A program made the translations under genes and the position numbers. A stretch of 64,000 nucleotides of DNA from Candidatus Aenigmatarchaeota archaeon. Its GTDB lineage: Archaea; Aenigmatarchaeota; Aenigmatarchaeia; CG10238-14. The notes beneath the pieces are model-generated. The model was not told where the DNA came from and did no database searches. It worked only from the letters and a program-made list of their open reading frames with translations. Numbering within the stretch: the stretch's first letter is position 1; every line of letters begins with the position of its first letter. Shown piece by piece: positions 1,222-27,630 of the stretch. The stretch spans positions 68,449 through 132,448 of the forward strand of contig JAHLMM010000001.1 of assembly GCA_018920365.1 (NCBI GenBank), read 5' to 3'.

Positions 1222-4017
1222 CTATCTTCGAAATATTGAATTAAACGTTTCCACAATTCTATCTAATATATTAGCATTTGTAGTAGTGTAAGTACACTCG
1301 TATTTTTCATTAATAAATCTAGCAGTTTCGCTTACTTCCTCTATATAACTTTGATCATAGCAACAACCATTTTGATTTCTGCAACTTAAAACTTCTTCGG
1401 CATGAAGCACAAAATCTCTGACTTTCATACCAGCAAAGCGTCCTTGCTGTATAACTTGATCTCCTAAACCATATGGTGTTATGCCCTTATCTGAATATAG
1501 TACATTTAGCTTTGTTGCAATCAAGTTATCAATAAACTGTCCTGTTCCCAATTCTTCTCTGTTAGAAGGATTGACAGAAGATTTTATCAAACAACTTGGG
1601 TTTCCTGGGACTACTGAAGGTAAAAACGATGCAACATAGGATGAATTTGTGAATGTTACAGTATATCCACCTTGAGTGGAATTTTTGCCTACAACAAAGT
1701 TTCCATTACCAAAAACTTTAATCCAGTTACAATCTCTTATGCAACCTGGATTAGTTGTATCTCTGCAACTTGTTGGGCATTTATCTAAACCCCACCCACC
1801 TGGCGTATAAGAGCAAACTTTAACTGTGGTTGTTGTTGGAGTTGTGGTTTTTGTGGTTGTTCTTGTTGTAAAGGTCGTAGTTTTTGTGGTTGTTCTTGTC
1901 GGTGTCGTAGATGTAGCTGTTGGTGTTGTTGGAGTTGGTGTAGCTATTTTACACAAAACATCTGTCTTGTCATAGCATCCATTTATAGCATTACCATCAT
2001 AAACGACTTGACCTAAAACACTGTAAACGCTGTTGTCTTTAATATCAAGGTTTTCAGTTTCAAAATAGCCACAATAAGGCCAATTGCCACAACTATATAG
2101 CCCTGGTATAGAAGTTTGCCAAACCAAGTTTTGATCTTTTGTTATATAAACATTAGAGCTTGAACCTTGTAAATAATTCCAATAAACAATTCCTGATACT
2201 TCAAAACTTGGACAATAAGACATTTTTAAAAGTGCACATTTAGGATAGCTGTGACATTGTAATTCAATGCCTGGATTGACAGAAGTTTGGCTTCCTGTTG
2301 CGCAAATATAATAATCGCTTTCTTTTGGTGAATGTGCTTCATCATAAAATTCATAACCTATGCTGTCGCCTTCAGGCAATTTGATGAAAAGAATTCTTGC
2401 AATTCCTATATTACTACCATACCAATAATCTGTTAAATTAAATGGGCCTTTTGAACATAATCTTCCAGGCGCACCTCCGGGGCCGTCCATGCCTTCGCCG
2501 CGTTCATCGCATAGATAAACCCATCTACCTTTAGAATATATTTGAATAAGGAACTTTGACATAATAGATGATTCGTACAAATAGTTGAATTCAATATTAT
2601 CTAAATATTCATAGTTGTTTACAAGATTCCAGGCAATATACAAAGCTCTTGTGCCATATTTGTTTGTGCAATAAACATCTGTATTTACACTTACAGAGCC
2701 GCTACATGCAGTCAATATCTGCTTTATGTTTCTTCCATTATCATCATTACATCTTACTTGATAATTGCTGTTACAATCGTACATAAATGCAGTAAATGGA
2801 TACAACGTTTTTGTTGTATAATCTGGACAAGAGCACTCAGCATTTATATCTATTGAGCATGGGAGTGTTGTGGTTGTCGTAGTTGGTGTGGTTGTTCTTG
2901 TTGTGTTAGGTGTGGTTGTGATTGGTGGTGTGGTTGTTCTTGTTGTGTTAGGTGTGGTTGTGATTGGTGGTGTGGTTGTTCTTGTTGTGTTAGGTGTGGT
3001 TGTGATTGGTGGTGTGGTTGTTCTTGTTGTGGTTTTTGTTGTTGTAGTAGTTGTCGGAATAGAACATTGCACAATTTTGTCTGACAAACAACCTTCTATA
3101 AACGAAGTGCTGTTAAAAACTCTTCCTTCAGCTTTGTAAATGTATGGGTATATCAAAACATTATCTATGTGTTCAAACTTATTAGGCGATGTATATAACG
3201 GACCCCAATTTCTTATTGATATATACCTATATGTTACTTCACCAGATTGAGCATCTGTTGAACTTTCAGGCATGCCTGGTTCATTACCAAATCTTACACC
3301 TTCAAATCTATACAAAGTTACATAAGAATAAACACTTGGATGATTCATTGTAAACCAATTGAATGTTACATTTAATTTTGGTCGCCCTCCAAAAATTTCA
3401 CATTTTATATCAATATAACTTTGACAAACTTTAACTGTAGTGGTTGTTGGTGTTGGAGTGGTTGTGCTAGTGGTTGTTGGGGGTGTGGTTGTTCTTGTTG
3501 TTGTAACAGGACAGCAATTCCATTTTATGTAATATTTGTTTCCGCAACCTGCTGCAAAACATTCTTTTTCATAAGATATCCCACCTGAATTGCAAAGTCT
3601 TGTTCCTGCAGGACATGTTTTAGCAGAATCACCACAATTAGGATCTGGTCCTGTACAAACAGATGCATAATAACAGCAAGTTGAAATTGCTCCTGGGTTT
3701 CCACATCTTTGAGAATCACATGTTGCGCATACACAATGAGAACCGGCAGGATCATTACATGTACAAAATGCTGTTTCAGGCCAATAACATTTAATATTAC
3801 ATTGACTGCCACTTGAACAAGGAATAATACCAAGTGAAGATGATGCTTGAGCTGGAACTATTTCATTATCTGTTATATAAGTAGTTGAAGGTATTCCAGG
3901 ATTTGATATCGAACTAAAGAATTCTTTTAAGCTTGTTACCAATCCTGTAAAGCTAAATGCATATACTAATGATGGCAGTAAAATGAGTGCCAACAATACA
4001 TAGCTTGAAAATTTCAT
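1222..4017 (-). CDS. large secreted Cys-rich, Thr/Pro-repeat (mucin-like) surface protein
   Basis: 931 aa ORF, signal peptide MKFSSYVLLALILLPSLVYA, several TTTRTTTPPITTTPNT-type linkers separating Cys-rich segments. Confidence 0.85.
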   Translation of the reverse strand: MKFSSYVLLALILLPSLVYAFSFTGLVTSLKEFFSSISNPGIPSTTYITDNEIVPAQASSSLGIIPCSSGSQCNIKCYWPETAFCTCNDPAGSHCVCATCDSQRCGNPGAISTCCYYASVCTGPDPNCGDSAKTCPAGTRLCNSGGISYEKECFAAGCGNKYYIKWNCCPVTTTRTTTPPTTTSTTTPTPTTTTVKVCQSYIDIKCEIFGGRPKLNVTFNWFTMNHPSVYSYVTLYRFEGVRFGNEPGMPESSTDAQSGEVTYRYISIRNWGPLYTSPNKFEHIDNVLIYPYIYKAEGRVFNSTSFIEGCLSDKIVQCSIPTTTTTTKTTTRTTTPPITTTPNTTRTTTPPITTTPNTTRTTTPPITTTPNTTRTTTPTTTTTTLPCSIDINAECSCPDYTTKTLYPFTAFMYDCNSNYQVRCNDDNGRNIKQILTACSGSVSVNTDVYCTNKYGTRALYIAWNLVNNYEYLDNIEFNYLYESSIMSKFLIQIYSKGRWVYLCDERGEGMDGPGGAPGRLCSKGPFNLTDYWYGSNIGIARILFIKLPEGDSIGYEFYDEAHSPKESDYYICATGSQTSVNPGIELQCHSYPKCALLKMSYCPSFEVSGIVYWNYLQGSSSNVYITKDQNLVWQTSIPGLYSCGNWPYCGYFETENLDIKDNSVYSVLGQVVYDGNAINGCYDKTDVLCKIATPTPTTPTATSTTPTRTTTKTTTFTTRTTTKTTTPTTTTVKVCSYTPGGWGLDKCPTSCRDTTNPGCIRDCNWIKVFGNGNFVVGKNSTQGGYTVTFTNSSYVASFLPSVVPGNPSCLIKSSVNPSNREELGTGQFIDNLIATKLNVLYSDKGITPYGLGDQVIQQGRFAGMKVRDFVLHAEEVLSCRNQNGCCYDQSYIEEVSETARFINEKYECTYTTTNANILDRIVETFNSIFRR
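2885..3031. repeat. three perfect 42-bp tandem repeats plus a 21-nt partial fourth copy, inside the Thr-rich CDS
   Basis: Unit ggtgtggttgttcttgttgtgttaggtgtggttgtgattggt at 2885, 2927 and 2969, partial at 3011. Confidence 0.95.
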
Positions 4018-4070
4018 AATTTAATTTTGATTTCTATATAAAAAGTTTTTTGTATAAGTATGTTATATAT

Positions 4071-4155
4071 GCCCCAGTAGCTCAGTTGGTAGATAAAAGC
4101 CAAAAGCAATTGCCTCGTAAGCAATAGGTCGTGGGTTCAAATCCCACCTGGGGCT
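4071..4155 (+). tRNA. tRNA-Thr(CGT) with a 12-nt D-arm insertion/intron (4093-4104)
   Basis: GCCCCAG/CTGGGGC acceptor, ATTGC-CTCGTAA-GCAAT anticodon arm, GTGGG-TTCAAAT-CCCAC T-arm, T73; removing ATAAAAGCCAAA restores a GCTC...GAGC D-stem. Confidence 0.9.
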
Positions 4156-6020
4156 TAACAGAATTTAATTGAATCTCTTTTCATACATCCAGATGATATC
4201 AACTTATTCACTGCATTAGGATCGCAAAAAGCAGCTCTTTTTACATCATCTTCACTGCATCCTCTATCAACAAGTATTTGACCTATTTCTCCAGCCGATT
4301 TTCTCTGACCTTCAAATTCAAAACAATAATATCTACTTCCAGAATAATATTCAGCACCCCATTCTGATTGATCACCTGTTTTGCAACCGCCGTATGAAAA
4401 TTGAAGTCCATGCAAAAGTTCATGCCTAAAAAGAATATTTAATTCATTTTGACCTAATCCAGATAAAACATTATATTTACAATATACAGCCAATCCCTTA
4501 CAGCCTTTTTTAGTGACATAACACCAATATCTTATGCCTTCTTCTGTACAATCATCAGATAAATCAATATTAACCCCCATCTCTTTTTTGATCTGCTCAA
4601 AAATCTGCCTAAAATCCCCTGAGTACATTGTATGTGTCCAAGGAATGTCTGTAGCAGGGATTGAATGTCCAATTGATGGTGGATCTTGAAAAGCAACAGC
4701 TTGATCAGGTGTTTTACACCCTGTACACCAGCTGTTTTTCAAATTTTCTGGAACACATCTATCACATTGAGGTTGAACGCCTGCCAAAGGAATTCTAGTA
4801 ATAGCATCTACACACAAACCTAAATTGCTATCAAAAACTCCTGTACTGCAACTCCAATCACATTCACATTGGCCCATGGTATAACAATTTCTTGATTGAA
4901 TCGCAACATTTGTGTGAACAGAAAAAGTCAGATAGTTTTGTCCTGGAACAGAAAGTCTATATTTTTTATCTGTACAACTAAATGTTGCTTCTACGCTGCT
5001 TTTGACAGTACTCCACATTTCAACAATTTGATCTGAACAATCATCCTGCAATGTTTGAGCGTTTGCTGGCGAATATACAAATGGTTTTGATTGATCATAT
5101 GATGAAAGTTTTAATTCGTCTTGTATACACAAATCACCATATGAACCATAATAGCAGTTATTGCATGTCGGTGACTCATCCCAATACACACAACTTGTAA
5201 CATCACCACAAGATTGCTTCTCCTGATGACAACATCCATAGTTTGCTTGACATGTAACATAGCTATCAAATCTATTTTGCAAATTTTCTAATGCCTTCTG
5301 AACAGCATTTGTATAGCATTGATAAAAACCTGGGCAGTTTGATTGACATTCTCCTGCTTGATTGCAATTGCATATCTGCATCATACAACCGCACATATAT
5401 CTTGAAAACACATTGTCTTCTGCCCATCTTCTAAAATTTCTATAGAGGTACCAAAATCTTACTTTGCCTATGTCTTGATAAACATTATTTGACGAATTTA
5501 TGAAGAAATTTCCATCGTTTATATACAAATAACTTCCATATGCACCAACATCAAACGATTCGTCATTCGTGCCTGACATTATATCTTGCTGATTGACATT
5601 ATAATCAATGCAATTAAATTTTCCTGAAAAAAATTCAACACCTTCATCTTCTTTGCTCTTGTTTGATTTAATCATATAACTGTTTAAGATTTTTTTCGTA
5701 TCTTCTGATAAATAATATTTGATTTCATCAACAGACGGAACAGATGGTGATGTGCATATCCATGTTCTTGTTGTACCTATATTACTTCCACCGTTTTTGG
5801 CTATATTTTTTGTTGATTGGTGAGAAGCAAGTGTTAATGCAGTTTTTGTGAATCCTTTGAAATTTTCTATATATTGCTGCATTTTAGACATCATGAAATT
5901 TTTTAATGACTCTTTTGTGTATGTTGTTTGATTATACATAGATAAAATCCAAATTACAGCTGTAACTGCAACTATTGATACTATTATCAGCAAACTACTT
6001 TGAGATTTTTCACCAAACAT
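4155..6020 (-). CDS. Cys-rich exported protein with N-terminal hydrophobic anchor and HExxH motif (putative metallopeptidase)
   Basis: SQSSLLIIVSIVAVTAVIWIL anchor; FRHELLHGLQF motif; many Cys in CxxC-like pairs. Confidence 0.75.
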   Translation of the reverse strand: MFGEKSQSSLLIIVSIVAVTAVIWILSMYNQTTYTKESLKNFMMSKMQQYIENFKGFTKTALTLASHQSTKNIAKNGGSNIGTTRTWICTSPSVPSVDEIKYYLSEDTKKILNSYMIKSNKSKEDEGVEFFSGKFNCIDYNVNQQDIMSGTNDESFDVGAYGSYLYINDGNFFINSSNNVYQDIGKVRFWYLYRNFRRWAEDNVFSRYMCGCMMQICNCNQAGECQSNCPGFYQCYTNAVQKALENLQNRFDSYVTCQANYGCCHQEKQSCGDVTSCVYWDESPTCNNCYYGSYGDLCIQDELKLSSYDQSKPFVYSPANAQTLQDDCSDQIVEMWSTVKSSVEATFSCTDKKYRLSVPGQNYLTFSVHTNVAIQSRNCYTMGQCECDWSCSTGVFDSNLGLCVDAITRIPLAGVQPQCDRCVPENLKNSWCTGCKTPDQAVAFQDPPSIGHSIPATDIPWTHTMYSGDFRQIFEQIKKEMGVNIDLSDDCTEEGIRYWCYVTKKGCKGLAVYCKYNVLSGLGQNELNILFRHELLHGLQFSYGGCKTGDQSEWGAEYYSGSRYYCFEFEGQRKSAGEIGQILVDRGCSEDDVKRAAFCDPNAVNKLISSGCMKRDSIKFC

Positions 6021-8441: not shown

Positions 8442-8689
8442 GGTGAGTTGGAGAGATAGCTTCGCCTTTCCCTCAAAAGAAAGGTGAGGAAGTTCCACCC
8501 GTTGAGAGATAGACAAGGTGAGAGCCTTGTTTTCGGCATCAGAAACGATACCTTCGTATCCAAATGGAATGATTGGATATGACGTCGGATATTGAAGGAT
8601 GAAACGGGCCGAAATATCTATGAAACGCAAGCTTTTGCGCTTAGACGGATGCTATCTTAAAACAGAAGGTGGGCTACCCCAACACACCA
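8442..8689 (+). ncRNA. rnpB: RNase P RNA (compact archaeal type)
   Basis: P1 pairing GGTGAGTTGG / CCAACACACC; conserved GAGGAAGTTCCACCC and AGACGG...ACAGAAGGTGGGCTACCCC segments. Confidence 0.88.
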
Positions 8690-27482: not shown

Positions 27483-27630
27483 GCCAAGGTGGCAGAACCA
27501 GGTAATGCACCGGACTTGAGTCGTGTTCCGATGTGGAAGATGGCTTGACCCTGATTAATGATGTCAAGGAGGTGAACCGAAGGAAATCCGGCGGGCTTTG
27601 CCCTTCAGGGTTCAAATCCCTGCCTTGGCG
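27483..27630 (+). tRNA. tRNA-Ser(TGA) with ~65-nt intron (27521-27585)
   Basis: GCCAAGG/CCTTGGC acceptor, G73, CCGGA-CTTGAG|...|A-TCCGG anticodon arm, long variable arm GGGC-TTT-GCCC, T-arm CAGGG-TTCAAAT-CCCTG. Confidence 0.9.

Follow-up and report, generated by a model that had tools for sequence, protein, structure and literature searches.

A 12-nucleotide insert with a relaxed bulge-helix-bulge motif at tRNA position 22/23 of an Aenigmatarchaeota tRNA-Thr(CGT) gene, in a genome with a single EndA gene

The window analyzed here, a 64,000-nucleotide stretch of DNA from a Candidatus Aenigmatarchaeota archaeon, contains a tRNA-Thr(CGT) gene with 12 extra nucleotides in its D-arm, raising the question of whether this insert is an intron and, if it is, which enzyme could remove it. 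The gene lies at exactly 4071-4155 on the forward strand (Rfam RF00005, 62.1 bits), where ARAGORN made no call. The insert, ATAAAAGCCAAA, occupies 4093-4104, between tRNA positions 22 and 23; a preliminary description made from the sequence had placed gene and insert at these positions, and the Rfam hit agrees with it to the base. When the 12 nucleotides are removed, the remaining sequence (GCCCCAG TA GCTC AGTTGGTA GAGC A ATTGC CTCGTAA GCAAT AGGTC GTGGG TTCAAAT CCCAC CTGGGGC T) forms a complete cloverleaf with the anticodon CGT, the GCTC/GAGC D-stem being restored as the same description had proposed, and the cloverleaf score rises from 13.5 to 22.6. The recovery of a full tRNA on removal is the behavior expected of a BHB intron. 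The Rfam match and the junction score described below define a 5′ exon with tRNA positions 1-22 (4071..4092, forward strand) and a 3′ exon with the anticodon CGT, a T as discriminator, and no encoded CCA (4105..4155, forward strand).

About 32 nucleotides 5′ of the tRNA, the sequence TATATAAA (4035..4042, forward strand) is, by its letters and position, a probable archaeal TATA box that would serve as the promoter. The gene is flanked by opposite-strand open reading frames at 1222-4017 and 4155-6020. The first of these (reverse strand) encodes a 931-amino acid Cys-rich protein with long Thr/Pro repeats, and it separates the tRNA from a radical-SAM-like gene whose start adjoins the tRNA in G001 and G003, two genomes of the same genus.

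To locate the splice junctions, every cut position and insert length was given a joint score that combined cloverleaf quality with pairing in the central helix. The top score (26.2; runner-up, 24.4) was obtained with a cut after nucleotide 22, the junctions AG^A and AA^A, and the central helix UGGU/GCCA. An alternative register, a 14-nt insert cut after nucleotide 21, scored 1.8 points lower and broke the D-stem, and it was rejected. The best solution places a 4-bp central helix with one G-U pair (U17 G18 G19 U20 at 4087..4090 and GCCA at 4099..4102) between two 3-nt bulges (AG^A at 4091..4093 and AA^A at 4103..4105, all on the forward strand), the arrangement of a BHB motif. The motif is a relaxed one, outside the strict hBHBh′ form, for its outer helix comprises 2 pairs and its inner helix no more than 1. 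The minimum-energy fold of the precursor retains three D-stem pairs and lengthens the helix to UUGGU/GCCAA, so it lacks the textbook 3-nt AAA bulge. Because a random 12-mer at this site yields a correctly placed 4-bp helix in 6-9% of cases, the gene alone is modest evidence, and no proof, of an intron; it is the relatives that carry the claim.

The same-genus genome G003 contains a Thr(CGT) gene that is identical at 72 of 73 exon bases and has a 10-nt insert, ATTTGCCAAA, in which the ends of ATAAAAGCCAAA are kept and the middle is altered. In G036, a member of another family, the insert is 13 nucleotides long and the helix is CGGU/ACCG. The same site is used in several isotypes, among them Thr(GGT) (12 nt in G007), Lys (29 nt in G087, anticodon CTT), and Phe. 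Intronless Thr(CGT) orthologues are present in G014 and G034 (loci L045 and L051). In two further genomes of the genus, G001 and G002 (loci L066 and L068), the D-arm of Thr(CGT) is intact and a 10-nt insert lies in the anticodon loop, and comparison by eye suggests that the genes on either side of the loci in G001 and G003 are homologues of those flanking the gene in the window. The intron of one orthologous tRNA gene therefore differs in position within a single genus, being in the D-arm in the window and G003 and in the anticodon loop in G001 and G002; G018 (locus L095) seems to have both. Apparent D-arm inserts of the 12-nt class were also seen in Arg tRNAs of other families (L069, L072, and L073), in a register of ∼20/21 (for example, TTGGAT^AGAATACCAAAA^AGAGC).

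A sequence pattern in which only GCTCAG, GG, AGA, CC, and AAAGC were fixed matched 14 of 160 genomes of the class, and a reversed control gave no match. When generic anticodon-arm and T-arm letters were added and the search was run over 85,462 prokaryote genomes of GTDB, 46 matches were obtained, all in records titled archaeal, that span Thermoproteota, Thaumarchaeota, Asgard, Hadesarchaea, and DPANN. Both bulges are fixed parts of these patterns and so common to all the archaeal matches. Covariation was analyzed in 43 distinct motifs at the two helix pairs that the pattern leaves free. Pair 17-17′ is Watson-Crick in 37 of 43 motifs, compared with 12.8 expected (reached in 0 of 20,000 shuffles), and pair 20-20′ is paired in 42 of 43 (shuffle fraction, 0.0002); these shuffles disregard relatedness, yet AU, UA, CG, and GC all figure among the changes, which are spread over different isotypes. 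The lengths of the inserts among these motifs range from 10 to 32 nucleotides. Together with the best joint score, the conserved junctions, the compensatory changes, the intronless orthologues, and the use of the site in several isotypes bear out the junctions and minimal BHB that the preliminary description had drawn.

Position 22/23 is listed among the non-canonical tRNA intron positions, with published lengths of 11-129 nt (PMC4090602). The intron in the window thus belongs to a known positional class, in which its 12 nucleotides fall at the short end of the range and the 10-nt insert of G003 just below it, and it has almost no inner helix. Its junctions, AG^A and AA^A, are also those of the matches in crenarchaeal, thaumarchaeal, and Asgard records. 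In contrast to most of the crenarchaeal matches, which have ∼3-4 inner pairs, this very short intron has essentially no inner helix. We found no paper on tRNA introns of Aenigmatarchaeota in the open-licence literature on tRNA introns in DPANN, Woesearchaeota, and Aenigmarchaeota.

Other tRNA genes of the host genome (752 kb in 19 contigs, 93.75% complete) are interrupted as well. The genes for Glu(TTC), Glu(CTC), and Gln(TTG) (loci L036, L037, and L038) have 18-20-nt D-loop introns at 15/16 with the junctions AG^A and AA^N, and introns at 15/16 recur in G001 and G003. These Glu and Gln genes, which appear 5′-truncated to Rfam, were considered as split tRNAs, a reading that was rejected when each proved complete with a 15/16 intron. 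A 40-nt intron at ∼30/31 was found in Leu(CAA) (L035) and one of ∼29 nt in the V-arm of Phe(GAA) (L027). Introns in the anticodon loop are present in Asn, Tyr, Thr(TGT), a CAT tRNA, Leu(TAA), and Ser(TGA); the last, at 27483-27630 of the window on the forward strand, has an intron of ∼65 nt and was also missed by ARAGORN, which evidently overlooks such interrupted genes. Since introns occur at 15/16, at ∼30/31, and in the V-arm, non-canonical splicing looks routine in this organism. The window also contains an archaeal RNase P RNA gene (8443-8687, forward strand, 103.8 bits).

From these observations, we conclude that the gene very probably yields a functional tRNA-Thr(CGU), its precursor being interrupted at position 22/23, a non-canonical site, by a BHB-type intron of 12 nt that is removed by protein enzymes. 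In the proposed pathway, the GCCA within the intron would form the central helix with U17-G18-G19-U20 of the D-loop. The sole EndA of the cell would cut both junctions (AG^A and AA^A), and the halves would presumably be ligated, and the GCUC/GAGC D-stem restored, by RtcB, whose gene was found in the genome alongside that for EndA. What was observed directly is the sequence, the cloverleaf recovered on removal, the conservation of the junctions, the covariation, and the presence of the two enzyme genes; from these we infer transcription, cleavage, and ligation.

Among the alternatives, all of them improbable, the likeliest is that the 12 nucleotides are never spliced out and enlarge the D-arm of the mature tRNA. 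The unspliced RNA does fold stably, with an extended D-hairpin, as this explanation would have it. However, the insert varies in length from one motif to the next while junctions and exons are conserved, orthologues exist that do without it, its paired flanks fit the geometry cut by EndA, and the pattern is confined to records titled archaeal, that is, to organisms that have EndA. We consider it less probable still that the gene is a decaying pseudogene. In that case, Thr(TGT) could read ACG codons through wobble; the remaining Thr genes of the genome are this TGT gene, with its anticodon-loop intron, and an intronless GGT gene. Against decay stand the near identity of the exons with those of G003, the integrity of every stem after removal of the insert, the TATA-like box in its place, and the search for an intact duplicate, which found no other CGT tRNA-Thr gene in the 93.75%-complete genome. 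That the insert arose as an artifact of sequencing or assembly, for which the draft state of the genome in 19 contigs and the chance frequency of the helix might be cited, is refuted for practical purposes by other genomes, assembled separately, that have a homologous insert at this site; locus L140 (Aenigmatarchaeota SKW179) and members of other families are among them.

If the 12 nucleotides are an intron, the next question is which EndA cuts it. The host EndA gene encodes 175 amino acids (L031:1279-1803, forward strand) and lies ∼6.6 kb past the end of the window. No second subunit was found in the host genome with two Pfam families or with a beta profile built from seven relatives that have tandem pairs (no match at E≤1). 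One EndA gene each is present in the window genome, G001, G003, G007, and G009, as expected of the homotetramer type (a single gene of ∼180 amino acids). The host protein aligns end to end with the Methanocaldococcus jannaschii homotetramer, and its structural model (pLDDT 87, pTM 0.85) matches that enzyme best (PDB 1A79, TM-score 0.86), the two being collinear over residues 4-175; crenarchaeal alpha subunits match the model nearly as well. The host EndA thus resembles the homotetramer type, the tetramer being read from gene number only.

The active site of this protein differs from that of the M. jannaschii enzyme, likewise the product of one gene. The catalytic Tyr and His are kept (Y105 and H121), but the position of Lys156 in M. 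jannaschii is occupied by Ala152, so the Tyr-His-Lys set is incomplete. This position lies where the alignment has no gaps, and among the 23 catalytic-type, non-epsilon EndA sequences of the class that cover it, it is Ala in 20, Ser in 2, and Thr in 1. The segment between Tyr and His forms a basic loop in the class enzymes, with the sequence VKLKRGPKxxxEHTK in that of the window organism. This loop is 6-7 residues longer than its M. jannaschii counterpart, and in tandem pairs the partner without the His lacks it. Of its lysines, K116 occurs in every sequence, and K112 is replaced by Ile in one (G027). A similar long basic loop precedes the catalytic His in the EndA alpha subunit of Nanoarchaeum equitans (PDB 3IEY), which, unlike the host enzyme, has retained the catalytic Lys and is paired with a beta subunit (PMC6379350). 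Broad-specificity enzymes are marked by a specific loop with a Lys close to the N-terminal GKP region. The CSL insert is absent from the host EndA, at a position where S. tokodaii has an 11-amino acid insert and Acidilobaceae, Thaumarchaeota, and Loki sequences have KPR or KPK; an ASL, judged from gene architecture only, is also lacking.

These features bear on the suggestion in the preliminary description that the intron needs a broad-specificity EndA. Part of it holds, in that relaxed motifs must be cut in this cell, but the sole EndA is of no known broad type, and the proposed check of its architecture returned a single gene whose closest structure is a narrow-specificity homotetramer, with active-site changes specific to the class. 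Reviews state that homotetrameric EndA cleaves only canonical BHB motifs (PMC4033280 and PMC6379350), and BHL-like motifs are said to be cleaved only by homodimeric and heterotetrameric enzymes (PMC8707768). In the published accounts, a non-canonical tRNA intron goes with an EndA that is heterotetrameric or of the epsilon type and bears a special loop (PMC4033280 and PMC6379350), and lysines of the CSL and ASL have been proposed to permit relaxed cutting (PMC12397907). The crenarchaeal heterotetramers with CSL and the ARMAN-2 epsilon enzyme with ASL (PMC12397907) likewise serve hosts with non-canonical and relaxed introns; in contrast to these, the host EndA has no beta subunit and no crenarchaeal loop and is not an epsilon fusion. 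A counterpoint to our reading of the gene is this mismatch between enzyme and intron, a homotetramer-type EndA reported to be canonical-only facing a relaxed motif.

This mismatch is not confined to the window organism. Introns at 22/23 were found in 14 class genomes, of which ten have one single-gene EndA (G000, G003, G007, G009, G018, G027, G034, G079, G087, and G110), one has an epsilon-like fusion (G013), and three, which are incomplete, yielded no EndA. Across the class (loci L178-L197), EndA occurs as a single gene, a tandem alpha/beta pair, a two-domain fusion of ∼365 amino acids, and an epsilon-like fusion of ∼400 amino acids. The Hadesarchaea and Woesearchaeota in which 22/23 introns occur each have one matching EndA, with the Lys present and the long loop absent, and their introns have 3-8 inner-helix pairs versus 0-2 in Aenigmatarchaeia, a correlation based on small numbers. 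One idea suggested by this comparison is that the basic loop may replace the Lys and allow cutting without an inner helix.

Taking these results further, we tentatively propose, with the odds somewhat against us, that the EndA of Aenigmatarchaeota could be an unrecognized variant: a single-gene, presumably homotetrameric enzyme that has lost the third catalytic residue (Lys to Ala, Ser, or Thr) and has a Lys/Arg-rich loop between Tyr and His instead. Alongside CSL and ASL, this would make three independent solutions, the new one allowing a single kind of subunit to cut minimal 10-13-nt introns that lack an inner helix, both in the D-arm and at other sites. For specialists, the point of interest is the mismatch of enzyme and intron, since the ten genomes with a single-gene EndA imply either that the enzymes of this class are relaxed by another route or that the canonical-only rule is too strict.
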